Origin: a virus
Direction: 5' to 3' (one strand)
Length of the DNA stretch: 43,038 nt
Virus record (IMG/VR): IMGVR_UViG_3300046834_000029
Location: 1 to 43,038 of that record
Each line of letters starts with the position of its first letter. Position 1 is the stretch's first letter. Below the pieces are notes generated by a model, which made no database searches, was not told the origin of the DNA, and saw only the letters and a list, made by a program, of their open reading frames with translations. This document shows, piece by piece, positions 1 through 43,027 of the stretch. The position numbers and the translations under genes were made by a program.

Positions 1-420
1 GTTGGAGCTGGAGCCCGAGCCCGTCGTCTTTGAAGCCATGAAGACTGGGGTATACCCCGCCAGGAAATCTCCCCCTGGTTGGGTATACCCTCCCTGGATG
101 TCACCGATGCGCCCGATCCAGGTAGGGTATACCCCACCTGGGACATCGCCGGTTACCCCGTCCGGGGTAAACCAGATAGACGGACGCACAACGTTGGAGC
201 TGAAGCCCATCATGCGAGACCGCCTGCGCGGGCCGCCTGCGATCCCGCCGATGCGGGTGTGCGCGACCCTCGATGGGGTAAACCCTTTCCGGGGTAAACC
301 CGAAACCCTAACGCACAACGTTGGAGCCTGACCCAAGCAATCCCAATCGCCGGTACAAGCGCGCCCGCCCCCGAAAACCACCGCCCCCTGCGTAACCCGA
401 AAAACCCCCGAAAACCATTT
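1..420. repeat. Gene-free left edge with GGGTATACCC palindromes and GTTGGAGC repeats
   Basis: No convincing gene: the open frames here lack family features and ribosome sites. The palindrome GGGTATACCC occurs at 47-58 (as GGGGTATACCCC), 81-90 and 125-134, and related GGGGTAAACC strings occur near 163, 275 and 293. The sequence ACGCACAACGTTGGAGC occurs twice (184-200 and 311-327), and its tail GTTGGAGC also opens the window at position 1. Function is unknown. The repeat content suggests a regulatory or replication-linked spacer rather than protein coding. Confidence 0.6.
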
Positions 421-717
421 TGGTAGCGTGGTAGCGTATTTTCTGACCCTTATATTATACAATACATTTACCCTCTATTTTTCCCCTCTTATATTATTAT
501 TACTTACTTACATACTAACTAAAGAAAAATGATACCATGCTACCAAACAAGCAAATAAGCCCCATATTTTAAGCCTTATTTTGTGGCAGCGTACCCTACC
601 ACAACGCTCCCAACACGCTACCAAAACACCCCTTATCCCTAATAAGAGTTGACAGCCCCCAACAGGTTCTATTAACTTTACCCCCAAATGGTAGCGCGAA
701 AAATCACCTGTGGTAGC
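421..717. repeat. TGGTAGC iteron cluster in AT-rich tract (candidate origin/operator)
   Basis: Exact copies of TGGTAGC are at 421-427, 429-435, 689-695 and 711-717, and of its complement GCTACCA at 539-545 and 617-623. The first two form a direct 8-bp tandem (GGTAGCGT twice). Near matches lie at 584-592 (TGGCAGCGT) and 604-612 (ACGCTCCCA). Between 440 and 570 the DNA is strikingly AT-rich for this genome. Repeats of both orientations around an AT-rich stretch next to the replication genes fit a phage replication origin, an operator array, or both. The next gene encodes a ribbon-helix-helix-like protein, the obvious candidate ligand. The repeats are seen directly; the function is inferred. Confidence 0.6.
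649..677 (+). promoter_or_regulatory. Candidate sigma70-type promoter of the rightward operon
   Basis: A perfect TTGACA -35 box lies at 649-654. Possible -10 boxes are TATTAA at 670-675 (15-bp spacer) or TTAACT at 672-677 (17-bp spacer). The first rightward gene starts at 736. TGGTAGC repeats at 617-623 upstream and at 689 and 711 downstream bracket the promoter, so a protein bound to them could block initiation or elongation. Confidence 0.45.
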
Positions 718-735
718 ATAAAGGAACCAAACAAA

Positions 736-1572
736 ATGCCCAAGACACCCCCCAAACTGAACACCGCGACCTTCGTCCTCGAAGAAGCCCAGATCGAAGC
801 CCTGCGCGGCGTGGCCCAAGCCCTCGATATGTCTGCCTCGAAACTTGTCCGCACCCTCGTCGGGAGCTACCTCGGTGACGCCACCCAGATTGAAAACTTC
901 GCCGAAGACATCCTGAACCCCACCTCCAACTCAAGAGACTATGCCGCCGCCACCGAACACGCCCGCAACGAACTTCACTTCCCCGGCTGCTATGTCTTCC
1001 ATGACGCGCCGGACCCTTCCAACCCCACCAAGCATGGCCCTTGGCGGTCGATAAAAGTTCGCGGGCATAACTGGCGCGACGACTGGGAGCGCGACCACGG
1101 CAACGACCTCGCCCCAACCCCGACCCCGATCCCCGTCAGCATCACGACCCTCGACAAGCTACGCACCCCCATGCCCAAGCCACCCTTCCCCAACCAGTCA
1201 AGTCGCTATCCTCTCCTCGGCGGCGACGAAGACCTCGTCTTCAAACGTGCCTTCCAACGTGCCCTCTCCACCCCCATCGGCGAAGACCCCGTCTCTACCG
1301 CCATGAACCCCAAAACCGTCCTCAACCAAGGCGTCTACGACCCCAACGACATCGAACTTTTCGACGACGGCCCCACCCCCGACTTCTTCGACGACCCCTT
1401 TGAGGAAGCCTACCCTGACCCCGTCCCCTATACTCAACGGAGACGAACACCCCCCGTCACCACCCTCGACGATCTCTTCAACGACCTCGAAACCCCAGCC
1501 CCCGAAACCCCCTCATTCAGCGACGAAACCTATGACGGCCTCGGACGCGCCAACGATTACATCAACGATTGA
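736..1572 (+). CDS. Ribbon-helix-helix-like DNA-binding protein
   Basis: A 278-aa protein. The N-terminal segment, about residues 7-50 (TFVLEEAQIEALRGVAQALD then MSASKLVRTLV), has the strand-helix-helix pattern of MetJ/Arc ribbon-helix-helix repressors. The rest is Pro- and Asp-rich and probably largely disordered. I chose ATG 736 over the in-frame ATG at 688 because AAGGAA lies about 10 bases upstream and because 688-720 carries two copies of the TGGTAGC repeat. As the first gene of the rightward operon, directly after the repeat array, it may be an autoregulator or an origin-binding protein. The DNA-binding role rests on the pattern only. Confidence 0.6.
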   Translation: MPKTPPKLNTATFVLEEAQIEALRGVAQALDMSASKLVRTLVGSYLGDATQIENFAEDILNPTSNSRDYAAATEHARNELHFPGCYVFHDAPDPSNPTKHGPWRSIKVRGHNWRDDWERDHGNDLAPTPTPIPVSITTLDKLRTPMPKPPFPNQSSRYPLLGGDEDLVFKRAFQRALSTPIGEDPVSTAMNPKTVLNQGVYDPNDIELFDDGPTPDFFDDPFEEAYPDPVPYTQRRRTPPVTTLDDLFNDLETPAPETPSFSDETYDGLGRANDYIND

Positions 1573-1607: not shown

Positions 1608-2303
1608 ATGGCAAGGCATCTTTATATCGGCGTTGACCCCGGCGTGACCGGGGCTTTCGCCGTTCTTGAGGACCGTCACCCAACCCCAACCGGCAAGGCC
1701 GAGTTCGTGGCCATCCACGACCTCCCAACCGACCCACTCAAACCAAACCGCATCGACCCGGTCGTTTTCCACGACCTCATCAACCCCTACATCCTGCCCA
1801 ACCCCAAGCTCTGGCCCCCCGCCACCACCCTCACCCTGATCCTTGAGACTTCACAGGGGCTCAAGTCCCAGTCCGCCACCAGCATCTTCAATTATGGGGT
1901 AACCACCGGAATTCTCAGGGCGACCCTGCTCATACTTATCAACCAGCTTCCTTTCCCAGCCCACATCATCGACGTTCAACCCCAGACATGGAAACGTGCG
2001 CTTTCACTCTTGTTCGATCCCACCGCCCCCGATCCAATCTTCGATCCCACCCTTTCCCCATCCACCCGGCGGTCAGCCCACGCCAAGGCTCAATCTCTCC
2101 AGAAAGCCCTCGACCTCTACCCACAATCCTTGGGAGAAATCACCCATCGCAAAGACCACAACAGGGCGGAGGCGCTCCTGCTCGCGCACTACGGGCTTCT
2201 CCTTTCCACCGATCAGATACTCGGGCCGACCTTGCATCATATCCCCGGCGAAAAGCGCCTCAAGCCCAAGACCCTGAAATTCGACGCCGGAGACCCCCAA
2301 TGA
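1608..2303 (+). CDS. RuvC-like Holliday junction resolvase / RNase H-fold nuclease
   Basis: A 231-aa protein. It opens with the RuvC signature YIGVDPGVTGA, placing the first catalytic Asp at residue 10. A second acidic site is in LILETSQG (Glu about 79), and the C-terminal acidic site is in HRKDHNRAEALLLAHYG (Asp about 183). This order of acids matches RuvC-type RNase H-fold endonucleases that resolve branched DNA before packaging. ATG 1608 is preferred over the upstream frame because the first strand of the fold begins there. The stop overlaps the start of the helicase gene by ATGA, indicating translational coupling. Confidence 0.82.
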   Translation: MARHLYIGVDPGVTGAFAVLEDRHPTPTGKAEFVAIHDLPTDPLKPNRIDPVVFHDLINPYILPNPKLWPPATTLTLILETSQGLKSQSATSIFNYGVTTGILRATLLILINQLPFPAHIIDVQPQTWKRALSLLFDPTAPDPIFDPTLSPSTRRSAHAKAQSLQKALDLYPQSLGEITHRKDHNRAEALLLAHYGLLLSTDQILGPTLHHIPGEKRLKPKTLKFDAGDPQ

Positions 2304-3697
2304 CCAGACCCACATCCAAGCCCCCGATGATGAAACATCAGATAGACGCCCAGTCACTCCTGAAAGACCCCTTCACCCCCAACGTCCTCGTCGCTTTCCA
2401 GCCCGGGCTTGGCAAGTCACGCACCGTCATCGAAGCCCTGACCACCTCCGCCCACTTTCCTGTTCTCGTTGTCTGCCCCGCCATCGCAAGGGACAACTGG
2501 CGAAATGAGTTCAAGCTATGGTCCCACCCCAAGATACACGGCTCCCCCGACCCTACCCAGCCGTCCTTCCTGACCATCGTGTCCTACGACCACCTCTCGA
2601 ACCTTGAGCCCGGGCACTCTACCCTGAACAAAACCAAATGGGGCACCATCATCCTCGACGAATGCCATCGTCTCAAGAACCTCAACGCCAAGCGCACCAA
2701 ATTCGTCTACGGTCATCGCGCCAAGAACCAAGGCCCAACCGCCCTCGTGCATAACGCCAAGAGGGTATGGCTTCTCTCCGGCACCCCGGCCCCCAATCAC
2801 GTAGGGGAGCTTTACCCTCACCTCCGGGCGCTCTGGCCTGATCTGATTACCCTTCCCCTCGTCTCGACCGGCCCGATGGGGCTCATGGAGTTTGAAGACC
2901 GCTACTGCTCGGTGACCAACTCTTATTTTGGAAGGCAAATCGTGGGTTCACGCAACGTGAAGGAACTCAAGGAGCTTATCAAAAAAGTCAGCATCTTCAG
3001 GCGTGAAGACCAGTGCCTCGATCTTCCACCCCTCGACATCCAAGTTTACCCTCTACCCCACGATGACATCCCCAAGAGGGAACTAAAGGCGATCGACGAC
3101 GCCCTCAACAACGTCGTCTCCCAAATGGAACACGCCCAAGACCCGATAAAAACCCTGTCCACCCTCGGGCTGCACAACGCCATCGAAAGGCACATACTTG
3201 GGGTTCTCAAAGCCCCGCTCGCCAGTGATCTGATCTACAACGACCTCGTCAACGATCCAGACCCCCAAGCCAAGGCCCTCGTGTTCTTCCATCATCGTGA
3301 AGTGGGGAAAATCCTCCACCGGATACTCACCTCAAGAGCCCTCAACCCTGTCCTCATCGACGGCAGCACCCCAAGCAAGCAAAGAACCCTCAACATCGAG
3401 AAGTTCCAGACCAACCCAAAAGTCCGGGTTATGATTGCCCAGATGACTGCCGCTGGCGAAGCGGTAAATCTTACCAAGGGGCGCGAAGTCTACCTCGTCG
3501 AACCCTCGTGGGTGCCGAAGGACAACTACCAAGCGATCAAAAGGGCCCATCGTATTGGCCAAGCCCGGTCGGTAAGGGCCCGGTTCCTCACCATCGGCGG
3601 CTCCCACGATGACAAAATCATGCGTACCGTGGCGAAAAAGACCAAGGACTTGCTGCCACTTTATGCAGACGAAAAAGAAAGTGAAAGCGCAGCCTGA
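2300..3697 (+). CDS. SNF2-family DEAD/DECH-box helicase
   Basis: A 465-aa superfamily 2 ATPase. Motif I is QPGLGKSRT (residues ~33-41), Ia is VLVVCPAIARDNW, II is LDECH (~119-122), III is WLLSGTPAP (~160) and VI is AIKRAHRIGQ (~410), the last typical of SNF2/Rad54-like enzymes. Phage proteins of this length and type sit with replication and recombination genes and are thought to remodel branched DNA or displace proteins. The start ATG 2300 overlaps the upstream stop (ATGA). The open frame extends 104 codons upstream across the RuvC-like gene, but that extension shows no homologous features. Confidence 0.9.
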   Translation: MTRPTSKPPMMKHQIDAQSLLKDPFTPNVLVAFQPGLGKSRTVIEALTTSAHFPVLVVCPAIARDNWRNEFKLWSHPKIHGSPDPTQPSFLTIVSYDHLSNLEPGHSTLNKTKWGTIILDECHRLKNLNAKRTKFVYGHRAKNQGPTALVHNAKRVWLLSGTPAPNHVGELYPHLRALWPDLITLPLVSTGPMGLMEFEDRYCSVTNSYFGRQIVGSRNVKELKELIKKVSIFRREDQCLDLPPLDIQVYPLPHDDIPKRELKAIDDALNNVVSQMEHAQDPIKTLSTLGLHNAIERHILGVLKAPLASDLIYNDLVNDPDPQAKALVFFHHREVGKILHRILTSRALNPVLIDGSTPSKQRTLNIEKFQTNPKVRVMIAQMTAAGEAVNLTKGREVYLVEPSWVPKDNYQAIKRAHRIGQARSVRARFLTIGGSHDDKIMRTVAKKTKDLLPLYADEKESESAA

Positions 3698-6055: not shown

Positions 6056-6264
6056 GACGCATGTTCAAGATTACCGTGGAGTGGAATAACGCCAACTGGA
6101 GCCCTCCCCTGCTTGCCGAATACATCGCTGACTGGGTAAGGATGGGGGAAGGCCATCTCCACCCTCTCGACCGCCCCGAAATCAGCGAAGTCACCATCAC
6201 CACCCAAGCCCCCGGCAGCCTCGTTGCCACGACTGTCACAACAATAAAAGGACTGACACCATGA
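6052..6264 (+). CDS. Small hypothetical protein (70 aa)
   Basis: A 70-aa protein (MRRMFKITVEWNNANWSPPL, then ISEVTITTQ) with probable alpha/beta composition and no recognised family. It is coupled by ATGA overlaps to genes on both sides, so it is probably translated with the nuclease gene that follows. Confidence 0.58.
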   Translation: MRRMFKITVEWNNANWSPPLLAEYIADWVRMGEGHLHPLDRPEISEVTITTQAPGSLVATTVTTIKGLTP

Positions 6265-7496
6265 GCCCCGCTATCCAACACGCCCGACTTGGCGCTTCTT
6301 CTTCCTCCATCTGGATGAACTGCACCGGAGCCCCAAATCTCTGGGACTTGCTGCCGCCATCCAAGAAAGGCAAACCCTCGTACTGGGCCGCCGAAGGCAC
6401 CGCCGCCCACATGGTCGCCGAGAGCGAACTCCGCCGCGAGGGGCTCTACCCTGTCGGCGGCAAAATCCAGATAGAAGACTTCGAGATCACCGTCACCAAA
6501 GACATGATCGAGGCGGTCAGCCACTACGTCGAGGAGTGCGAGCGCATCTCCAAGGATGCCGACTTCACTGAACTGGAGCATCAGGTAAACCTTGACCCGC
6601 TTTTCGCCCCCAATGGCCCGCCCGAACCCCTGTTCTCGACCACCGACTTTGTGGCGGTCAAGGGTCCAACCATGTTTCTCCGCGATTATAAACACGGCGC
6701 TGGCATCGTGGTTGAAGCCACCACCTCACAGCTCAAATACTACGCCACCGCCGCTTACTTTGGGCTCCCCGCCAACCTCCGGGGGCAGATCGTCACCGTT
6801 GACATGGGCATCGTCCAGCCCCGCGCCCATCACCCCGATGGCCCGGTCCGCAACCATGTTATGACCCTCAAGGAACTCGCCGACTGGGCCAAGAACGAAC
6901 TCAAGCCCAAGATCATCGAAGTGCAAACTTCAAAAACCCTCGTCACGGGCGATCATTGTAAGTTTTGCCGGGCGCTGGCGCTTTGCCCTAAAGTTCTGGA
7001 AAGAACACAAGCCCTTGCAAGAGCCAGTTTCTCGGCGAACCCGATCCAGGCTCTACCCCCTACCCCGGCGGCGAACCCTGTACCCCAGAACCCCCAGACC
7101 TTGACCAACCAGCAGCTCGCCGAGGTTCAGAACTTCGCGTCCACCATAAAAGGCTGGCTCGAAGCGGTCCAAGCCGAAGTCCAGACCCGTCTCGAAAGTG
7201 ATACTCCAGTCCCCGGCTGGAGACTTGTCCCCGCGCGGAAGCGCAGGGTGTGGCGTGATGACGCAGAGGCCCTGAGATACCTTGTTGTCACTTGCGGCAT
7301 CGACCCCAAGCTAGTATCTCATATCAAGGTGGCAGGAGTTCCTGACATCGAGAAGCTCTTGAAGCACAACCATCCCGGTGTGTTCCAGACTATGGGGCCT
7401 CTCATCGACCCCGGTGGTGATGGCCAAACCATCGCCCCGACCGACGACCGCCGCAAAGCCAAGGCTTTCGCGGGGGCCGAACTACCCGAAGCCTAA
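6261..7496 (+). CDS. DUF2800 family PD-(D/E)XK (Cas4/RecB-like) nuclease
   Basis: A 411-aa protein matching the phage DUF2800 family, which has the Cas4/RecB-like nuclease fold. The N-terminal motif is EGTAAHMVAESE (residues ~45-56). The catalytic core is D129 in STTDFVAV, then D142-x-K144 in LRDYKHG, followed by the Gln/Lys helix SQLKYYA. Cysteines C233, C236 and C242 (CKFCRALALC) fit a Cas4-type iron-sulfur or zinc site; a fourth Cys would be needed for a full cluster. In related phages this gene stands directly upstream of the ssDNA-binding protein and DNA polymerase, as here, suggesting a role in recombination or end processing. Start is ATG 6261, ATGA-coupled. Confidence 0.88.
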   Translation: MSPAIQHARLGASSSSIWMNCTGAPNLWDLLPPSKKGKPSYWAAEGTAAHMVAESELRREGLYPVGGKIQIEDFEITVTKDMIEAVSHYVEECERISKDADFTELEHQVNLDPLFAPNGPPEPLFSTTDFVAVKGPTMFLRDYKHGAGIVVEATTSQLKYYATAAYFGLPANLRGQIVTVDMGIVQPRAHHPDGPVRNHVMTLKELADWAKNELKPKIIEVQTSKTLVTGDHCKFCRALALCPKVLERTQALARASFSANPIQALPPTPAANPVPQNPQTLTNQQLAEVQNFASTIKGWLEAVQAEVQTRLESDTPVPGWRLVPARKRRVWRDDAEALRYLVVTCGIDPKLVSHIKVAGVPDIEKLLKHNHPGVFQTMGPLIDPGGDGQTIAPTDDRRKAKAFAGAELPEA

Positions 7497-7543: not shown

Positions 7544-8221
7544 ATGGCAAGTCTCGAAAAAGCCTTTACCCCACCCGCCGTGATGATGTTCAACAACCTC
7601 TTCGCGCCCCGTCAGAACCAAGATGGAAGTCTTGGCAAATACGACATCCTCATGGTTGTAAAGCCGAAGGAACAGAAGTCGCCCTACTGGGTTGACCTCG
7701 TCAACAAGATCAAGGCCGCTGCCGCCCTCACCCACCCCAAACTCCCTCTCAGCAAGCTCACCCTGCCCATTCAGAAGCCGGATGCGCTCCTTGAGAAAGG
7801 CTATGACGGGGTCGAGGAAGGCGACATGATTATCAAGGCGGCTTCCAAGGAAAAGCCCGGCATCGTGGACCGGAACGCGCAGGACATCATCAACAAGTCC
7901 GAGGTCTGGTCCGGGCAGATTGTCAGGGCCGAAGTCGCTGTCGGCGGCTACGACGTGAACGGCAAGAAGGGGGTTACCCTCTACCTTGACAATGTTCAGG
8001 TCTTGAAAAGCAACATGCCGCGCCTCGATGGCCGCAAATCCGCCTCGGCGACTTTCGCCGCCGCGCCGCCGGTCACCGGCTACGACGAGGACGATAGCGA
8101 CGACAACACCGCCCTCGAAGACACGCTCTCTACCCCTGCCCCCGCCCCCGCCAAGGCGGCGAAGGCAAAGGGCAAGTCCGCTGTCGCCACCGTGACCGAC
8201 AATGACGACCTTTTCGGCTAG
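7544..8221 (+). CDS. ssDNA-binding protein, Enc34/DUF2815 family
   Basis: A 225-aa protein of the phage Enc34-type ssDNA-binding family (formerly DUF2815). It has the typical N-terminus with FTPPAVMMFNNLFAPRQ, a central OB-fold-like region, and an acidic low-complexity C-terminus ending DNDDLFG. The acidic tail ending in an aromatic residue resembles SSB tails that recruit replication partners. It lies between the DUF2800 nuclease and the polymerase, the usual order for this replication module. The preceding 47-base gap has no clear promoter. Confidence 0.87.
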   Translation: MASLEKAFTPPAVMMFNNLFAPRQNQDGSLGKYDILMVVKPKEQKSPYWVDLVNKIKAAAALTHPKLPLSKLTLPIQKPDALLEKGYDGVEEGDMIIKAASKEKPGIVDRNAQDIINKSEVWSGQIVRAEVAVGGYDVNGKKGVTLYLDNVQVLKSNMPRLDGRKSASATFAAAPPVTGYDEDDSDDNTALEDTLSTPAPAPAKAAKAKGKSAVATVTDNDDLFG

Positions 8222-8757: not shown

Positions 8758-10740
8758 ATGCCTATCCTCCACGTTGATATTGAAACCGCTTCTGAGATCG
8801 ACCTCCGGGAAGTCGGGGTACACACTTACGCTGAACACCCCTCCACTGTAATAACCGTCATCGCCTATGCCCTCGACGACGGCCCGGTAAAGACCATCAA
8901 CCCCGGCAGCGCGAGGACCACCGGCACGGCCCTTCACGTAGCGAAGGAAGTCGCCGAGTTCGTCCAGATCGCCTCGCGCCCCGATGTGGTCATTCACGCT
9001 TTCAACGCTGAATTTGAATTTACCCTCCTGCGAAGCGCCTTCAACAATGTGCCGCCGTTCAACCTCGATGATGTCAAACTCAAGTGGCGCTGCACCATGG
9101 CGCAAGGGCTCTACTGGGGCCTTCCCGCCGCCCTCGACGATGCGGGCCAAGCCCTCGGCGCACCCACCAGCATGATGAAAGACAAGACGGCACACGGCCT
9201 GATGATGCGGATGTCCCGCCCCCGCTCCCGCGCCCCCAACCTCGCGTGGTGGCATATCGACGACCCGCAAAAGCTGGCCGAGCTTACCGAATACTGCAAG
9301 CAGGATGTCGAGGCCGAGCGTTGGCTCTCCAAGAACCTCGACCCTCTCCCACGGACGGAACACAAGATGTGGGCGATCAACGTCGAAATGAACGCCGCCG
9401 GGGTAAACATAGACCACCCTTTCGTCGATGCGCTTCTTAAAGTCTCGGAAGAACTGCGCGACGAAACCGACAAGAAATTAAGCTATATCACCGGCGGAGA
9501 AGTAACTTCCTCGACACAGCTTCCCAAGCTCCGGGCCTGGGCCCTGGCGCGGGGGTACACCCCGCCCTCCCTTGATCGTGGGAGCATCGAGAATTTTCTC
9601 AGGTCAAACCCCAACGTGGACCCCGACCTCAAGATTGCCCTGAACCTAAGGCTCGATGTCTCCAAAAGCTCCACCAAGAAACTGGAGCGCATCAAGAAAG
9701 TCGCGGGCGGCGGCGATGTATGCCGGGGTCTTATCTCCTACTATGGCGCGGCCCGAACCGGGAGATACTCGGGCAAGCTCATCCAGCCCCAGAACCTCCC
9801 GCGCGGGAACCTCAAGCCCCAAGATGTCGAAGCCATTCGTGGGGTTCTCGTCGGCTTTCCGCCCATCCCGACACCCCCGATGACCCTTGACCAAGTCTCG
9901 TCATGTGTCCGGGGCACGATCATTCCACCCAAAGACCATTTCATGCTCTCCGGGGACTTGGCCCAGATCGAGGCGAGGGTTCTCGCATGGCTGGCAGGAC
10001 AAATGGATATTCTCGGGGTTTTCGCCAACGGCGGCGATGTCTACACCTATGCCGCCGCCAAGCTCGGCTCCCCCGACCGGCAGCTTGGCAAGGTCGTGAC
10101 CCTCGGCCTCGGCTACGGCATGGGGTACATCCGCTTCATCGACACCGCCAAGACCTACAAGATCGTCCTCAATGCGGTGCAAGCCAACGCTATCGTGACG
10201 CTGTGGCGGGACAACAACCCGAGCATCGTCAAGTTCTGGATTGATGTCGAGCGGGCTTTCCGCCGGGCGATCAACCAGCCCGCCGGGATCGCCTATCCTG
10301 CCGGTGACAAGATAAGCATTACTTCCTATGAGGAAAACGGCCAGCGCAATGTGGTTGTCATCCTGCCCTCGAAAAGGCTTCTGGTTTATCGTGATTGCCG
10401 GGACGACCCTAACGAGGGGCTCTCCTACCACGGGGTAGACCAGAAGACCACGGTTTGGGGCGAGATCAGGACTTACGGGGCCCGCGTTGTCGAGAATATC
10501 ACCCAAGCCGTGGCCCGCGATGTCATTGTCCGCGCCCTGTATTACACCGACGACGACGAGTATCTTACCCCTGTCCTGACCGTGCATGATGAAATAGTTG
10601 TGACTTGCCCGTTTGCCAGCTTGTCCATCACTGACGCGAAGGATAGGCTGCACAAGCTCCTGACACAAAAAGGAACGTGGATGACTGGCCTGCCGGTCGC
10701 CGCCACCGTCACCGCGCTTAACAGATACGCCAAGATTTAG
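8758..10740 (+). CDS. DNA polymerase I (family A) with 3'-5' exonuclease domain
   Basis: A 660-aa replicative polymerase. The exonuclease domain has ExoI LHVDIETAS (D7, E9), ExoII HAFNAEFEF (~82-88) and ExoIII EYCKQDVEAE (~180-189), so proofreading residues are present. In the polymerase domain, motif A is LSGDLAQIEARV (~398-409), motif B RQLGKVVTLGLGYG (~441-454) and motif C LTVHDEIVV (~606-614). The length matches the phage group that pairs PolA with DUF2800, Enc34-SSB and a primase-helicase. The ribosome site is AAAGGACC, about 8 bases before ATG. Confidence 0.95.
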   Translation: MPILHVDIETASEIDLREVGVHTYAEHPSTVITVIAYALDDGPVKTINPGSARTTGTALHVAKEVAEFVQIASRPDVVIHAFNAEFEFTLLRSAFNNVPPFNLDDVKLKWRCTMAQGLYWGLPAALDDAGQALGAPTSMMKDKTAHGLMMRMSRPRSRAPNLAWWHIDDPQKLAELTEYCKQDVEAERWLSKNLDPLPRTEHKMWAINVEMNAAGVNIDHPFVDALLKVSEELRDETDKKLSYITGGEVTSSTQLPKLRAWALARGYTPPSLDRGSIENFLRSNPNVDPDLKIALNLRLDVSKSSTKKLERIKKVAGGGDVCRGLISYYGAARTGRYSGKLIQPQNLPRGNLKPQDVEAIRGVLVGFPPIPTPPMTLDQVSSCVRGTIIPPKDHFMLSGDLAQIEARVLAWLAGQMDILGVFANGGDVYTYAAAKLGSPDRQLGKVVTLGLGYGMGYIRFIDTAKTYKIVLNAVQANAIVTLWRDNNPSIVKFWIDVERAFRRAINQPAGIAYPAGDKISITSYEENGQRNVVVILPSKRLLVYRDCRDDPNEGLSYHGVDQKTTVWGEIRTYGARVVENITQAVARDVIVRALYYTDDDEYLTPVLTVHDEIVVTCPFASLSITDAKDRLHKLLTQKGTWMTGLPVAATVTALNRYAKI

Positions 10741-10752
10741 GGGGAACCCCAA

Positions 10753-13266
10753 GTGACACCGCTCACCAACCACGAATTCCTGACCACCGTCTTCGGCAAG
10801 GACGCTGACTTAGCCTATGTCTGCGCCTTCCCCGGCGACCCTAACTCCGCTAACAACCCCGAACGCTGGGCAGGGAGGACATACCGGGGTATAGATTTCA
10901 AGAACCCCCAGACCCTAAATACCTATGTCACCGTGAGCGTTTTCTCCAAGGGCCGACGCCGCGACCCCGAAGCGACCGCCATGTATGTGATGATCGTCGA
11001 TGATGTCGGCACCAAGGTAGATCAAAAACTATGGGAAAAGCTCTTTCCCATCAAGGATTTCCCGCCAACATGGGTGTTCGAGACTTCAAGGGGAAATTAC
11101 CAGTGGGGCTACGCCATCAAGGGCGGTTTCCGGGGTTATCCCTTGGCGAAGTTCATGGAGCAGTCATGGAAGGCGGCGGTCAAGAGCATCGCCAAGGGGG
11201 GCAAAGACCCCGGCGTCGGCGACCTGACCCGCTATTTCCGCTTGCCCGAGGGCATGAACGGCAAGGCCAGCGCCAAAAACTGGCCAGTAAAAGTCACCCA
11301 CTGGGAACCAAAAGTCCTCTACAAGCCAGAGGCTTTCGCGCTTAAAGTCCTGAAGGTAGACCCCCAAGCCTTCCAGGATGCCCAGAGCGGGGCGTACACG
11401 GCGGTTCCCGTCGGGGCTACCCCACAGGCTACCCCGGACGACGACCCCACTGGCTGGGGCGCTGCGCTGGCCAAGCATGGCCTTCTGCACCACCAGATCA
11501 AGCCGGGGGTCTGGGCGATGGAGTGCCCCTTCATCGAGGAACACTCCACAAGTGACCCGACCGGCTTCGCCTATATCGGCGATGGCTGCTTCCATTGCTT
11601 TCACGGACATTGTGAAGACCGGAAACCCGACGATTTCAGGAACGGGCTCAAGGAGCTGCACCCCGGTCTCGCCGGGGATGTGGCCCGGGTGGTGTTCTCA
11701 CAGAAGCCTCTTGCCCCGGAAGACCTCGACCTCACCGACCTCGCCGCCGGGGTAGAAGCCGTCGCCGCCAAGGTGCAAGCCAGAATTATCCAGATAGACG
11801 CGGGCAAACTCGATGAACGCTACGTCTGGCTCCCTCCCTTCTATGAGTGGTTCGACACCAAGGACCGGGGCTCTCTGTCGGTCCAGTCCTTCGACCAGAC
11901 CTACCACGCGCTGCAAGAGGTAATCGCCCGCGATTACGGCAAATGGACGGGGAAGGGCGTGATGCCGAGCCCCTCCCGCAGCCTGATTAAAGCCGACAAC
12001 ATCAAGCACTCATACACGAAGACCTATTCCCCCGGGCACCCCCCGGTGTTTCAAAAACCGGGGAGCCAGAAGTGGATAGTCAATACTTGGGTGGCTTCGG
12101 AATATGGCCAGCACAATCCCGCCTTCGCCTGTACCCCGGCGGAGAAGCTGGACGCCATCGACGACTTTACTCGTGTCGTGAAACAGGTGGTGGGCCCCGA
12201 CATGCTGGACCATTTCCTCGACTGGTCGGCCCTTGTCGTCGCCGACCCCAAGGAGAAGCCCAACTACCACTGGCTGATTATAACCAGCCCCGGCATGGGC
12301 AAGGACAGCCTCTCGAAAATCATCAACGCTCTCGTTGGCGAGAGCAACAGTGTCACGGTCACCAGCAGCCATGTCTCATCGGGGTTCAGCACATGGGCGG
12401 CATCGAAATTTATCACGGTGAATGAACTCTCCCCCGCCACCGCTGGCAAGAAAGCCGGGATCGTCCTATTCGATGCCCTGAAAACCTTCATGGCCAAGCC
12501 TCCCGATGAGGTTTCCATCAACACCAAATTCGAGAAACCCTACAAAGCCCCGAACACCGGGGCCTATGTCCTGTTCTCCAACCACGCCAACCCCATCGTC
12601 CTCGACAAGGGGGAGCGCCGCCTCGTCGTGGTTGATCGTCTCAAGGCCAAGAACGAGATCGAGGCCGACCCGGTCCGCGACTGGGGGTATATGAACCGGG
12701 AGCTTATGGGTAACCCCAAGGCCCTCGAAGCGGTCGCGGTGTTCCTGCGCGAACGCTACAAGGCGATGAGCGATGCCCGGCGCAAGGCGTTGTTCTCCCC
12801 CGCGCCCATGACAAAGGCCAAGAGCATCCTGATCGAGGGCGATACCCCGAGCGAGGAAGCCTTCATCAGCGACTTCATCGACGAGCAACGCGCGGCGAAC
12901 CGGCAGTTGTGGACCGGGGACGAGCTGCGGGCCCTCTATGATGCCGAGCATAACCGCCGGGGTAATGACCTGAAGTACACCAACTTTCAGCAGTTTACCA
13001 AGGGCCTGTTCCAGGCCGGGGCGTGGAAGCCGTATTCTCTGCCGAAAGGCGACGAGCATGGCCGCGTCACTTTGTCACCTGGGAAGAAAAGGCAGATGGT
13101 CTATGCTCTGTACGAAACCCCGGAGTTGCCTTCTGGAGCTTTTATGAAGGCCCCGGAGATCATCGCGGTGTTCAAGGCCCAGAGCGCCGCGACCAGTGCC
13201 AATGTGGTTGCGTTCCCTGACCACGAAACCCTCGACCCCGTTGCGGGGAAGGAGAAAAAGAAATGA
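10753..13266 (+). CDS. Primase/SF3-type helicase (DUF5906-like), GTG start
   Basis: An 837-aa fusion. The N-terminal ~220 residues resemble RepB/AEP-type primases (YVMIVDDVGTK at ~77-87, then TSRGNYQWGYAI and DLTRYFRLPEGMN). A zinc-binding segment follows at ~255-286 (ECPFIEEH with later CFHCFHGHC). The C-terminal half is a DUF5906-like SF3 helicase, with Walker A IITSPGMGKDSLSK (~510), a conserved ITVNELSP acidic site and VLFSNHANPIVLDKGERRLV (~610-629). It would unwind and prime the template for the polymerase just upstream. The start is GTG at 10753, fixed by MTPLTNHEF and the preceding GGGGGAA. The stop overlaps the next gene by ATGA. Confidence 0.9.
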   Translation: MTPLTNHEFLTTVFGKDADLAYVCAFPGDPNSANNPERWAGRTYRGIDFKNPQTLNTYVTVSVFSKGRRRDPEATAMYVMIVDDVGTKVDQKLWEKLFPIKDFPPTWVFETSRGNYQWGYAIKGGFRGYPLAKFMEQSWKAAVKSIAKGGKDPGVGDLTRYFRLPEGMNGKASAKNWPVKVTHWEPKVLYKPEAFALKVLKVDPQAFQDAQSGAYTAVPVGATPQATPDDDPTGWGAALAKHGLLHHQIKPGVWAMECPFIEEHSTSDPTGFAYIGDGCFHCFHGHCEDRKPDDFRNGLKELHPGLAGDVARVVFSQKPLAPEDLDLTDLAAGVEAVAAKVQARIIQIDAGKLDERYVWLPPFYEWFDTKDRGSLSVQSFDQTYHALQEVIARDYGKWTGKGVMPSPSRSLIKADNIKHSYTKTYSPGHPPVFQKPGSQKWIVNTWVASEYGQHNPAFACTPAEKLDAIDDFTRVVKQVVGPDMLDHFLDWSALVVADPKEKPNYHWLIITSPGMGKDSLSKIINALVGESNSVTVTSSHVSSGFSTWAASKFITVNELSPATAGKKAGIVLFDALKTFMAKPPDEVSINTKFEKPYKAPNTGAYVLFSNHANPIVLDKGERRLVVVDRLKAKNEIEADPVRDWGYMNRELMGNPKALEAVAVFLRERYKAMSDARRKALFSPAPMTKAKSILIEGDTPSEEAFISDFIDEQRAANRQLWTGDELRALYDAEHNRRGNDLKYTNFQQFTKGLFQAGAWKPYSLPKGDEHGRVTLSPGKKRQMVYALYETPELPSGAFMKAPEIIAVFKAQSAATSANVVAFPDHETLDPVAGKEKKK

Positions 13267-14544: not shown

Positions 14545-15069
14545 ATGGCATGGAGAACTGACCAGCGCCACGATCAGGCAGTCAAGGACGAGGTCGCCCG
14601 GCTTTGGGCCGAAGGCCACTCTGCGAGGGACATCGCCGCGATGATGGCCCGATTTCCGGGGTTGCTGCGCCCCCTGACCCGGAACGCGGTGATCGGCATG
14701 GTCCACCGGGCGCGGGTCAAGAGTGGCGGAGCCGCGACCCGCAAGGCCCTCAAGCCCCGCAAACTCAGCAAGCCCCGGAAACCCCCGGCGAAGCTACAGG
14801 AGCCATACCTCCCGCCTAAGCCCCCGGTGGAGAAGAGCGAGCATCGGCCCAAGGCGAAGTACCCGCCGAGGCCGGTCGAGGTGGCGAAGAAACCCGCCAA
14901 GGCCTCCGTGCGTTGGGTTCCGATACTCAAGACCGGCCTGATGACCTGTCGCTATACCACTGACGGGAAAGCCTTTTGCAACTCCCAAGAGGGACACCCC
15001 TGGTGCCCCGAACACCGGAAAGTGGTCTTCACTCCCGGGGGTAAGTACCCCATGCGGAGGGTGGCATGA
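14545..15069 (+). CDS. GcrA-family cell-cycle regulator homologue
   Basis: A 174-aa protein. The N-terminal domain (residues 1-58) matches GcrA: a W near the start, LWAEGHSARDIAAMM, and the recognition segment TRNAVIGMVHRARV. A basic Pro/Lys linker follows (~60-130). The C-terminal ~35 residues (TCRYTTDGKAFCNSQEG, then WCPEHRK) match the Cys/His-rich GcrA C-terminal region. Host GcrA of Caulobacter-type bacteria binds sigma70-RNA polymerase and activates promoters with methylated GAnTC sites. A phage copy could redirect host or phage transcription. It places the host in Alphaproteobacteria. ATG 14545 directly follows the HTH gene's stop. Confidence 0.85.
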   Translation: MAWRTDQRHDQAVKDEVARLWAEGHSARDIAAMMARFPGLLRPLTRNAVIGMVHRARVKSGGAATRKALKPRKLSKPRKPPAKLQEPYLPPKPPVEKSEHRPKAKYPPRPVEVAKKPAKASVRWVPILKTGLMTCRYTTDGKAFCNSQEGHPWCPEHRKVVFTPGGKYPMRRVA

Positions 15070-38752: not shown

Positions 38753-40219
38753 TTAGCTGTACTCCCACTGGTCAAGGGTTTCAAAAGGATCAATCATCGG
38801 GGCGATCTGGCCACGGTTATAGCCTTGGCGGTTATTGAGGCGCTCGATGTCGGTTAAAGGCAGGATTTGGGCGAAAGTCAAGGCGACCGCGTCGGCGATG
38901 TCGGGTGAAGGAAGACCCCTTGACTTGAGTTCATCCTTGCCCTCGATGGCCAATCTTCCTTTGTTATCAAAGAAATAGTTGAGGGTGGCGCAATCATCGG
39001 CGAAGGCTTCACGAAGCTGAAAGTTTTGATGGATGGCGGCCCTTTCTTCGAGCCACTCTTTCATCCTGACATAGCACTCGGCGCGGAGATTGGCATATTT
39101 GCGGTCGTCATTGGCACGGCGGCCCACGTTGACATCCTCGACGTTGGAGTAACCAAGATGCCGGAGCCGGTCCACCACCCCGCCACCTACCCCGACGCCA
39201 TCGACGAAGATCATTCGGGGCTTGTAGAGGATGGCAAGGTTGGCGGTTTGCTGGGCGGTGTACATGAGGTCTTGCCCCTTCCACGCCTTGCCATCGACGA
39301 GGCGATCGCCTTGGCGGACCACCACGACAGTCCGGTCATCGCCGAAACGGGCGACATCGACGCCCAGGGTAGTGGGCTGGTTCGGATCACGGTTGACTTG
39401 CCGGTGGAGGGCCTCCTCAAGTGTGATGCCTGAAATAAGTTGGTCGTAACCCTCGACCTCGAAAGAACATTCCAGCTCGCGGGCGTATTCATTGGCACCC
39501 ATCGTGCGCTTCATGTGTTCAAGCTCGGAGTGGGGCAGGATGTGGGTTTCGGAGGCGCGGAGGACTTTGGTGAACCAGTTCAGGGGGTCTTTGGTGCCTT
39601 TACGGTAAGCAGCGTAGAAAGCGTCCCTGCCCTTGGCCGTCCCGATGATGGTCAGCCAGCCAAGGCGATCCGCCAGGGCAGGGCGAATGACCTCGGTCAT
39701 CGCGCGGGGGTCGCAGTCTGAATACTCGTCGATGACGCAGCCGTCGAGGTAGATGCCCCTCATCCGGTCATAGGCGGAACTGTCAAGGGAGTAAAGCCGG
39801 ATCACCGCCCCATTGAAGAGGGTGACCGAGAGTTCCTGCTCGTTGACCCGTGTGTTGGGAAGTGGGTAGGTGAACCGCTTGAGGTAAATCCAGACCACAT
39901 CCTTGATCTGGGCGTGAGTGGGTCCGCAAAAAGCATAGCGGGCGTCGGGCTTGGAAACCTTGAGGGCGCGATGGATGACATCCATCAGGGCGGCGACCGT
40001 CTTTCCCGCCCGGCGGTGGGCGACAATCGCGGCAAACCGCTGGGCCCGGCGGTGGAAATCATCGAAGTATTTGCGAGCTTTGTAGTCGAGGGTGATGACG
40101 CGGCCAGCGGAGGGGGTGCCTGGGTTGCCCCTCAGAGAGGCAAGGACGGGGTCGGCTTGGAAGGGTATGATACCCTCCGGGGTGGGGGCAAAAGGGCGTG
40201 AGCGGTCACTTGTGGGCAT
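38753..40219 (-). CDS. terL: Terminase large subunit
   Basis: A 488-aa packaging ATPase-nuclease. Walker A is AHRRAGKTVA (~67-76), Walker B is CVIDEYSD (~161-168) with catalytic Glu165, and coupling motif III is TIIGTAKGRD (~190-199). The RNase H-like nuclease domain begins TTLGVDVARFGDDRTV (Asp288), continues MIFVDGVGVGGGVVDRL, and ends near SPDIADAVALTFA. Length and motifs are typical. It overlaps the small-subunit gene by 14 bases and powers DNA translocation through the portal. Confidence 0.95.
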   Translation of the reverse strand: MPTSDRSRPFAPTPEGIIPFQADPVLASLRGNPGTPSAGRVITLDYKARKYFDDFHRRAQRFAAIVAHRRAGKTVAALMDVIHRALKVSKPDARYAFCGPTHAQIKDVVWIYLKRFTYPLPNTRVNEQELSVTLFNGAVIRLYSLDSSAYDRMRGIYLDGCVIDEYSDCDPRAMTEVIRPALADRLGWLTIIGTAKGRDAFYAAYRKGTKDPLNWFTKVLRASETHILPHSELEHMKRTMGANEYARELECSFEVEGYDQLISGITLEEALHRQVNRDPNQPTTLGVDVARFGDDRTVVVVRQGDRLVDGKAWKGQDLMYTAQQTANLAILYKPRMIFVDGVGVGGGVVDRLRHLGYSNVEDVNVGRRANDDRKYANLRAECYVRMKEWLEERAAIHQNFQLREAFADDCATLNYFFDNKGRLAIEGKDELKSRGLPSPDIADAVALTFAQILPLTDIERLNNRQGYNRGQIAPMIDPFETLDQWEYS

Positions 40220-40829
40220 CTGGAGGGGGTTCCGTCACACGTTGGGGGCCCGCGAGGGGGTCTTCGTCGAGGTTTTGGACAAAAAGCCGGTCATTTGGGG
40301 TGAGGTCGAGCGTGGTTTCCGCCGAGGGAGGGCTTGGGAGGGCGTTTTGCGGGTGGGCTTCAGGAACTCCGGTGATTATCGTGATCTGGGCCGAGACGCC
40401 CACGGCGATTGGAGGCCCGGGGCGGTCCTGCCACGCCTGGGGGTCGGCATTTTTCAGGGCAAACATGGAGGCCGCCACCACAGGGGGGCTCCTTGAATGG
40501 AGAAGGCCCCTTTCGAGGTAGTGAAGCCTGCGGAGCTTGGCAATATCGAGATGCTCGACGAAGTGGGGGTTCGCCGCGAAGGCCGGGGCGAGGAGCGAGG
40601 GGTTAAGTTTGAGCGCACCACAGGCCGCATAGAGGGTAAGGCCGGTCGCCATGAGTTCGGAAAGCTCGTGAATGTGAGTTTCCGTGATGATTTCGGTCAG
40701 GGGGGCCAGGACGGGGCCGCCTTTTTGCTTTTTTAGCCTCTTTTGCTGGACGGGACGGCCCTCCGAGAACGCCTTGGCGTTCTCAAAAACGTCTTGCTTG
40801 CGCTGTCGTTGAGCGAATGATGCTGGCAT
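40206..40829 (-). CDS. terS: Probable terminase small subunit
   Basis: A 207-aa protein. A helical DNA-binding region at residues ~55-105 (HELSELMATGLTLYAACGAL, then KLNPSLLAPAFAANPHFVEH) is followed by LRRLHYLERGLL, the HTH-plus-helix order of small terminase subunits. The C-terminus is Pro-rich. ATG 40829 (MPASFAQRQRKQDVFE) is chosen; the frame stays open upstream through the minisatellites to 41216, but that part has no protein-like composition. It lies immediately before terL. No convincing ribosome site precedes the ATG. Confidence 0.72.
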   Translation of the reverse strand: MPASFAQRQRKQDVFENAKAFSEGRPVQQKRLKKQKGGPVLAPLTEIITETHIHELSELMATGLTLYAACGALKLNPSLLAPAFAANPHFVEHLDIAKLRRLHYLERGLLHSRSPPVVAASMFALKNADPQAWQDRPGPPIAVGVSAQITIITGVPEAHPQNALPSPPSAETTLDLTPNDRLFVQNLDEDPLAGPQRVTEPPPDAHK

Positions 40830-40952
40830 GGAGGGTGGGATTAGCCCTTTTTGGGGGGTTTTGCAAGGATGGGTGTTTATTCCTAGTGGTTGGGGTGATT
40901 TTGGGGTGAGTAGGCGTCTTGCACCCCCGCGACCGGGGGGCCTTTCCGGGGG

Positions 40953-40979
40953 CCGGGGTACTCCGTACCCCGGTTTTTT
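40953..40979 (+). terminator. Hairpin with T-tract, rightward orientation
   Basis: CCGGGGTAC (40953-40961) pairs perfectly with GTACCCCGG (40965-40973) around TCC and is followed by TTTTTT (40974-40979), a textbook intrinsic terminator for rightward transcripts. No rightward gene lies before it, so it would stop antisense transcripts from the terminase region. Read leftwards it lacks a T-tract. The arms again contain the GGGGTAC motif. Confidence 0.6.
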
Positions 40980-40992
40980 ACCCCGGCAGGCG

Positions 40993-41102
40993 CACCCTCG
41001 CACCCTCGCACCCTCGCACCCTCGCACCCTCGCACCCTCGCACCCTCGCACCCTCGCACCCTCGCACCCTCGCACCCTCGCACCCTCGCACCCTCGCACC
41101 CT
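40993..41102. repeat. Minisatellite, 8-bp unit CACCCTCG x 13
   Basis: Thirteen perfect head-to-tail copies of CACCCTCG fill 40993-41096, followed by a partial copy CACCCT (41097-41102). There is no variation between copies, which implies recent slippage expansion. Because 8 is not a multiple of 3, a change in copy number would shift any reading frame crossing it. Confidence 0.95.
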
Positions 41103-41109
41103 TACCGCC

Positions 41110-41171
41110 GGGGCAGGCGGGGCAGGCGGGGCAGGCGGGGCAGGCGGGGCAGGCGGGGCAGGCGGGGCAGG
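41110..41171. repeat. Minisatellite, 9-bp unit GGGGCAGGC x 6
   Basis: Six perfect copies of GGGGCAGGC fill 41110-41163, and a seventh (41164-41171) is complete except for its last base. It starts only 8 bases after the 8-bp repeat array. The unit is G-rich on the + strand, with regularly spaced G4 runs that could fold into G-quadruplexes in single-stranded DNA. Confidence 0.93.
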
Positions 41172-41245
41172 GGCAAAAACCGGGGTTTTTGGGGTATAGC
41201 TGCGGCATTCTGCCATAAGCTAGAAGCCCCTGTAATACCCCGCCA

Positions 41246-41295
41246 AACCCCGATTTGGTTTTTGATAGCTAGGTATCAAAAACCAAATCGGGGTT
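41246..41295. repeat. Perfect 22-bp inverted repeat with 6-base loop
   Basis: The left arm 41246-41267 begins AACCCCGATTTGG and ends TTGATA. The right arm 41274-41295 is its exact reverse complement, and the loop is GCTAGG. Each arm contains a run of five T (or A) near the loop. This is the longest perfect dyad I found in the window. It may be a strong bidirectional terminator, a protein-binding dyad, or a replication or packaging structure. It lies between the divergent operons. Confidence 0.92.
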
Positions 41296-41515: not shown

Positions 41516-43027
41516 ATGAATAGCTTTATTAGGATTATATCGACGCCCATTGGACAATTTGCGGGCAAGGATGATTTACGAAAAACCGTTCGGGCACATA
41601 AAAACTGGGTTCCTATTCGTGACACATCTGGGCGGGTTCTCAATCCTAGCGTCTCGCAATGTATTGATTTCATTGAGAAAAATGACTTCTCAAATCATCC
41701 CGTTGCAACCCCGCAACCCGCAACCCCTGAAACCGCAACCCCTGAAACGGAAACCCCAATGACCCTGATAGATGATACCGAACTAACAACCCCGGAAGCG
41801 GGCGAGACGCCAAAAACCTTGCGGGATATAGCCGAGGATTGCCTTGCGGATATCTCGCCATTTTTGGCAAACGATAAAACTAGCGCCATTGTGGACAAGG
41901 TTCTCGATGCAATCCAAAATGCTCAGATAGACGCCCACAATTCGGCCCTTGCCAGTGTCGCGGCAACCCCGGCGGGCGGCAATGCGCCCGCCTTGCGGCA
42001 ACCCCGGGCGGTTCAAACCTCAAATGTTGCAAAGGTTTTTGGCGTCAAGGGCAATCGGGCAAAAGAGGTTAATTGCACTATTTTCGATTATCCTTTTGCG
42101 CCAAAAATTGACAAGTTTTACGAATTCCCGGCGGATTTGACGCCCGAAATAGTGGCGGCAATCGAGCGGGGCAATCAAGGGGTTTGGATTGGCGGCGCGC
42201 CCTCAACCTCTAAGAGTTCACTATTGACGCAAATTGCCGCCCAAACCCGCCGCCCTCTATTTGTGATCGAGGGCAGCGCGGCGTTGGACATGGCCGAAAT
42301 TTTCGGCGGGATTGGATTAAAGGACGGGCAAACCTTGTTTAAAGAGGGACTGTTTACCAAGGCAATTCAAGTCCCTTACGCCATTATTGTTTTGGACGAA
42401 TGCCACAAAATCCCGCAAGCAAGCGCAAGCGCATTGCAAACCAGCATGGCCTCAAAAGAGGTTCACATTGCCGCAACCGGGCAAGTTATTCAATTTGCAA
42501 AGGGCGTAACTATTCATGCAACCGCGAATGATATGGGATTTTCAGACGAAACCGGGAACCATTTTGGCAATGAGATGGATACCGCATTCATAGACCGCTT
42601 CGACATGATTTTGGCGTCAAGCTATATGCCAAAAGAGGCAGAGGCGCGGGCATTGGCCGGGCATTTGGGCGTCTCGCCCGATAAGGTTGCGCCTTTTGTG
42701 GATTTGGCAAACCTTTCCCGCAAGGCAATGATTGACGGAAAAACCCATCAAGCAATCACCTTCCGATCATTGCGGGCATGGGTTCAGGCCCTTCTTAATG
42801 GAACGCCCGAACGCATGGCGTTTGAGGTTTGCATTGCTAACAAAATGAAGCCCGCCTATTCCGAAACCCAAAGGCAACTATACAAGGCGGATTTTGCGGG
42901 CAAGGCCGCCGGGGCGGTTGCCGCCTTGCGGGGTATCTCAACCCCTGCCCTTGCCCAAAACCCCGCCTCTGCCCGTCCTAGCGCCGCCGGGGCACGTTTC
43001 CCGAATGACGTTGAAACCTTAATCTAA
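41516..43027 (+). CDS. MoxR/CobS-like AAA+ ATPase
   Basis: A 503-aa protein. The N-terminal ~60 residues (IRIISTPIGQFAGKDDLRKT) may form a small separate domain. Residues ~70-170 are Thr/Pro/Glu-rich linker and helix. The AAA+ core spans ~185-440, with Walker A GGAPSTSKSSL (226-236), Walker B IIVLDECHK with Asp294-Glu295, a sensor-like IHATANDMGF, and arginine-finger-region TAFIDRFDMIL. The fold resembles MoxR/CobS ATPases that phages also carry. Both inner glycines of the usual GxxGxGK[ST] loop are Ser here. Codon use is more A/T-rich than elsewhere (AAA, TTG, ATT common), suggesting recent acquisition. Substrate unknown; any VWA-type partner would lie outside the window. Confidence 0.82.
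   Translation: MNSFIRIISTPIGQFAGKDDLRKTVRAHKNWVPIRDTSGRVLNPSVSQCIDFIEKNDFSNHPVATPQPATPETATPETETPMTLIDDTELTTPEAGETPKTLRDIAEDCLADISPFLANDKTSAIVDKVLDAIQNAQIDAHNSALASVAATPAGGNAPALRQPRAVQTSNVAKVFGVKGNRAKEVNCTIFDYPFAPKIDKFYEFPADLTPEIVAAIERGNQGVWIGGAPSTSKSSLLTQIAAQTRRPLFVIEGSAALDMAEIFGGIGLKDGQTLFKEGLFTKAIQVPYAIIVLDECHKIPQASASALQTSMASKEVHIAATGQVIQFAKGVTIHATANDMGFSDETGNHFGNEMDTAFIDRFDMILASSYMPKEAEARALAGHLGVSPDKVAPFVDLANLSRKAMIDGKTHQAITFRSLRAWVQALLNGTPERMAFEVCIANKMKPAYSETQRQLYKADFAGKAAGAVAALRGISTPALAQNPASARPSAAGARFPNDVETLI

Follow-up and report, generated by a model that had tools for sequence, protein, structure and literature searches.

We analysed the whole of a 43,038-base viral record (the window) and conclude that the interval 419–547, together with satellite sites extending to 717, is probably the replication origin, or the initiator-binding core, of a phage of the D5/SF3-type primase-helicase kind. 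This conclusion draws on sequence comparison with other replicons, which lends good support to the origin reading put forward in a first-pass annotation (iterons plus an AT-rich unwinding region).

The TGGTAGC repeat array at the left end of the window is real. The six exact copies that the annotation had placed within about 300 bases were all recovered, at 421, 429, 689 and 711 on the plus strand and at 539 and 617 on the minus strand, and no further exact copy is found beyond 421–717 in the rest of the record. The annotation had counted two near matches; here four copies carry a single mismatch (584 on the plus strand and 531, 595 and 606 on the minus strand). There are therefore ten sites with 0–1 mismatch in 300 bp, compared with approximately 0.8 expected from the genome-wide rate, an expectation that rests on 109 such sites in 43 kb. 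In 2,000 dinucleotide shuffles of 401–735 the exact word occurred on average 0.05 times and at most once. It is the clustering that is significant and not the genome-wide count, where the six copies observed compare with 2.75 expected from shuffles and have no significance. Among the dispersed two-strand 7-mer clusters of the genome the array ranks first; only tandem microsatellites at 40.99–41.17 kb score higher, and the remaining strong clusters in the record are either those microsatellites (40,991–41,171) or weaker ones, all cluster p-values being Poisson approximations. An 11-bp periodicity was detected by TRF at 596–627. Many copies of one short repeat are thus clustered in non-coding DNA, as at iteron origins. 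No Rfam match and no tRNA was found, a BLAST search with the array DNA as query returned only AT-rich noise, and the literature searched contained nothing relevant on TGGTAGC or GGTAGC iterons.

The AT-rich surroundings that the annotation had described are equally clear, since no other 150-bp stretch of the genome is as AT-rich as 437–586 (GC 0.287, compared with 60% GC overall). What had been overlooked is that this stretch is enclosed by two 8-bp-spaced pairs of repeats (421/429 and 531/539) in opposite orientation (Table 1). The arms at 419–441 and 525–547 are 83% complementary with 83 nt between them, the GC content of the loop between the 18-nt arms at 420 and 529 is 0.24, and the second iteron of the right arm is imperfect. 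When single-stranded, the arms pair as a stem-loop (−14.2 kcal/mol, z −4.65), in keeping with the pRN1/BPP-1 type, in which the stem-loop measures approximately 100 nt and its stem approximately 20 bp.

Table 1. Positions of the proposed origin elements and of the replication genes in the window.
Feature	Position	Strand	Remarks
Left arm, tandem pair of 8-bp iterons (TTTGGTAGCGTGGTAGCGTATTT)	419–441	+	pairs with 525–547
AT-rich loop, candidate DNA unwinding element	442–524		AT-richest 150 bp starts at 437
Right arm, inverted tandem pair (TGGTAGC 539–545, TGGTATC 531–537)	525–547	-	stem-loop with left arm
Four further iterons (584+ TGGCAGC, 595- TGGTAGG, 606- TGGGAGC, 617- exact)	584–623		
Possible weak promoter (TTGACA 649–654; poor -10, TATTAA 670 or TTAACT 672)	649–677	+	absent from promoter scan
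Two exact iterons (689, 711) between possible promoter and RHH-like gene	689–717	+	
CopG/RHH-like protein (278 aa) that may regulate the replication genes	736–1572	+	
RuvC-like Holliday junction resolvase	1608–2303	+	PHROG 1770, E 7.5e-13
SNF2-type helicase	2300–3697	+	PF00176, PHROG 62
DUF2800 exonuclease	6261–7496	+	PF10926 E 3.5e-61, PHROG 69
Enc34-type ssDNA-binding protein	7544–8221	+	PF10991, PHROG 112
Family A DNA polymerase	8758–10740	+	PF00476, PHROG 17
Primase-helicase (RepB-type primase + DUF5906 SF3-type helicase), proposed initiator	10753–13266	+	PF16793, PF19263

Plus-strand genes start at 736 with a ribbon-helix-helix (RHH)-like protein and continue through replication genes up to the primase-helicase; that replication genes follow the RHH-like gene had been proposed from the translations and is borne out by Pfam and PHROG matches. 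The 10753–13266 product combines a RepB-type primase with DUF5906, and so supplies the window with a D5/SF3- or DUF927-type replication helicase; a match to the PDB 6k9c primase is further evidence for its primase part, and no winged helix was identified in it. Structural genes occupy the minus strand from approximately 17.7 to 41.2 kb. GC skew tracks gene direction, its extremes falling near 0/41 kb and 17 kb, and alone cannot place an origin. A GcrA-like cell-cycle regulator at 14545–15069 (PF07750, E 1.4e-12) suggests an alphaproteobacterial host.

Several other features were observed towards the ends of the record. At the right end, a CobS/MoxR-like AAA+ ATPase is encoded at 41516–43027 (PF07728; PHROG 249, labelled porphyrin biosynthesis), and a 50-bp near-perfect loopless palindrome (41246–41295) lies between the leftward structural genes and this rightward gene. 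The perfect microsatellites at 40991–41171 comprise 14 copies of CGCACCCT followed by 7 of CGGGGCAGG, and overlap the 5' part of ORF 40206–41216. The left end holds a second repeat family (47–301), with GGGGTATACCCC-type palindromes at 47, 80 and 124 and GGGGTAAACCC at 275 and 291; GTTGGAGC repeats occur in addition at positions 1, 193 and 320. Assembly of the record may have stopped within these repeats.

An experimental precedent is pRN1, where replication depends on a 100-nt stem-loop located 3' of orf904 and the origin has been genetically mapped. Phage BIP-1 was proposed to have a similar stem-loop origin, and the search for iterons in that study reportedly found none (PMC4234260). On our reading of the sequences, the pRN1 arms consist of tandem TGTCCA repeats with a period of approximately 9 bp, and those of Bordetella phage BPP-1/BIP-1 of tandem TTTGCCTCG octamers with an 8-bp period, in each case inverted around the loop. 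Both replicons also encode a primase and an SF3-type helicase, and pRN1 has a copy-control gene beside its rep gene. In contrast to the window, whose element is beside the RHH-like gene, theirs lies 3' of the rep gene (by ~0.5 kb in BPP-1); the iteron words also differ, and the window adds satellite iterons. SaPI and SCCmec origins, which are served by the self-loading helicases Rep, Cch and Cch2, likewise pair a short-repeat array with a D5_N- or DUF927-type helicase in the same element. In these systems binding has been demonstrated, SaPI Rep and SCCmec Cch2 binding iterons directly downstream of their own genes (PMC7581432), whereas binding in the window is inferred and both word and distance differ.

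Relatives of the primase-helicase were chosen without regard to repeats. In the closest one found, MW202483 (E 1e-35 against the 10753–13266 protein), TTGGTAGT iterons spaced by 8 and 11 bp flank AT-rich DNA on both sides, approximately 3.5 kb beyond the helicase gene. Beside them, 14 GTAAAC copies in ~360 bp make up another array (10212–10570 of this record, our L354), and some of these copies form GTTTACGTAAAC palindromes. Among phages with related primases, Curvibacter phage PCA1 carries tandem GGTTCC octamers, inverted relative to each other, immediately 3' of its primase, and inverted CCTACGCAAT pairs occupy the same position in Serratia phage JS26. Pseudomonas phage Ppu-503 gave a weak array candidate only, and no such array was detected by these methods in Vibrio phages MZH0603 and 1.021.A. 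PCA1, BPP-1 and the pRN1 origin share with the window the order tandem pair, loop, inverted tandem pair. The annotation had suggested that the module could be previously undescribed, which is an overstatement given that its architecture belongs to a known kind.

When IMG/VR was scanned for TGGTAGC pairs and triples, many hits were repeats within coding sequence, but two-strand arrays in the non-coding DNA of unrelated phages were found as well. Six of these GGTAGC arrays (G001, G005, G011, G012, G014 and G015) have a primase-helicase gene 0–460 bp away, and most of the six lie by the 3' end of that gene. In G003 the corresponding gene is ~5 kb away, in G002 a D5 gene lies 1.4 kb from the array if the contig is circular, and in G010 only a D5-type primase N-terminus is present, at ~0.5 kb. 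DUF5906 was found in 6/11 array records (the window counted) compared with 1/41 control records from the same scan, and the helicases beside same-word arrays fall into several lineages. Three candidates were set aside, G013 (L262) as doubtful, no primase-helicase being seen nearby, and L228 and L120 because they carry direct repeats only. The recurrence of TGGTAGC itself is partly due to selection by searching for that word.

Since these scans had searched for the TGGTAGC word, VapE-type helicase loci were also drawn from GTDB genomes, with repeats playing no part in their choice. Most of them carry a two-strand repeat cluster; a strong one, at p<1e-10, was present at 40/70 of the VapE loci and 16/165 background loci (Fisher 6e-14, the loci not being phylogenetically independent); a looser threshold of p<1e-6 flagged 57/165 background loci, and the stricter one was relied on instead. 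Many of the clusters begin at the helicase stop codon, and in 36/79 loci the cluster starts within −250 to +500 bp of the stop, where uniform placement would give about 5. The words include GTAAAC, GGTGAC, GTCCCA, GTTACA, CTACAA, GGTAGC and others, so TGGTAGC was rejected as one universal iteron. From the excess of clusters and their differing words, iteron arrays linked to these helicases are a general architecture in which the word is lineage-specific. The VapE-type prophage arrays (L274–L353) resemble that of the window in having iterons clustered on both strands in linkage with an SF3-type helicase gene, and those of Lachnospiraceae L274 and L275 also in their GGTAGC word; they differ in having more copies, a lineage-varying word and a position at the helicase stop codon or 1–3 kb beyond. 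They too would be origins. Ten loci, mostly Rhodobacterales (L316, L322, L326, L330, L331, L335, L337, L348, L350 and L353), carry a CCCAAC array approximately 1.8–3.4 kb past the helicase stop. Two background phages have dense two-strand GTACCA arrays (L246 8566–8908, 13 copies; L249 1806–2154, 21 copies), perhaps further iteron origins.

The main oddity of the origin reading is distance. The array (421–717) lies neither directly downstream of the helicase gene, which ends at 13266, nor 3' of the rep gene as in pRN1 and BPP-1, but 10 kb upstream and ahead of the replication genes, whereas most comparators have array and gene no more than 0.5 kb apart. Near the primase-helicase 3' end there is no two-strand cluster to rival the array, and no array at 13–15 kb. 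Alignments of the SNF2, PolA and primase proteins gave no useful close relative covering the array region; a capsid protein search found a record with 80% identity (L005), which holds the structural half only. If the origin reading is correct, the RepB-primase/DUF5906 protein would recognise the TGGTAGC iterons of both oppositely oriented arms and form two rings there. It would then open the AT-rich loop that separates the rings and prime DNA synthesis, to be carried on by the polymerase, SSB and accessory helicase that the phage itself encodes. The iterons at 584–717, around the leader of the RHH-like gene, may then let either the initiator or the RHH-like protein adjust replication-gene expression.

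The RHH-like gene could point to a different function. RHH repressors bind short tandem or inverted sites, and the array might be the operator of the 736–1572 protein and no origin, with RHH dimers side by side on TGGTAGC half-sites repressing an early promoter. As at CopG and omega repressor operators, an RHH-like gene lies directly downstream of short sites, both tandem and inverted, that flank a possible promoter, two exact sites fall between that promoter and the gene, and the N-terminus of the protein resembles CopG. This resemblance is a 34-residue ungapped alignment, equalled by none of 1,000 shuffles, to what we take to be the CopG sequence. The ribbon-helix-helix assignment in the first-pass annotation holds to that extent, but it is weak: Pfam gave sub-threshold matches only, a structure model and fold search of the N-terminus were uninformative and left the RHH fold unconfirmed, and no homologue was found in INPHARED or IMG/VR. 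The TTGACA hexamer of the promoter that had been called is likewise present, but it has no convincing −10 element. Same-word arrays in other phages adjoin primase-helicases without an RHH-like gene, and in the window the AT-richest 150 bp lie within the array, which is built as the same unit as the mapped pRN1 origin; we therefore regard a pure operator as unlikely. Among the phages with same-word arrays the repeats do not travel with an RHH gene. Nor is the RHH-like protein a good candidate for the initiator, as had also been suggested, since comparable arrays adjoin primase-helicase genes and none inspected had an RHH-like neighbour; being only weakly CopG-like and not common to other arrays, it is more likely a regulator.

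As such it could plausibly repress the replication genes near the array, by analogy with orf56 beside the pRN1 rep gene. A dual role, in which an origin for the primase-helicase is subject to RHH-like copy-number control through iteron competition or repression of the operon promoter, overlaps with the preferred reading and is possible but doubtful. The leader of the RHH-like gene lies amid satellite iterons, and pRN1 unites a small copy-control gene, a primase-helicase gene and a stem-loop origin; the role is nevertheless one that we infer, and pRN1 keeps copy control and origin at different places. Iteron arrays with an RHH-like gene next to them are also a typical par layout, which would fit a partition centromere bound by a protein of the ParG/ParR kind, but the subset of ORFs scanned yielded no ParA/ParM/TubZ-type NTPase and no integrase or plasmid-like lysogeny gene, making this very improbable. 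We give as little credence to a chance or compositional pile-up of functionless short repeats in non-coding DNA. The strong two-strand clusters at background loci show that such clusters do occur elsewhere, but the exact copies here are confined to the array and are not reproduced by shuffles, and inverted arms with an AT-rich loop arose in none of 30 whole-window shuffles, which also even out local composition.

A primase-helicase origin thus being the preferred reading, the array gives an uncultivated phage an origin that can be tested. It is conceivable, though we would stop just short of calling it probable, that a single grammar, with paired iterons spaced by approximately 8–11 bp and inverted across an AT-rich loop, is common to D5/VapE/DUF5906/DUF927 origins of phages, satellites and archaeal plasmids, with words diverging between helicases, and that the window is a relocated example under an RHH-like regulator. 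The 'stem-loop' origins of primase-SF3 replicons such as pRN1 and BPP-1 are on this proposal suggested to be inverted iterons bound as duplex DNA. If this is true, arrays would be predictable for many prophages with VapE/D5-type helicases, and initiator-iteron specificity would become testable over many natural pairs.
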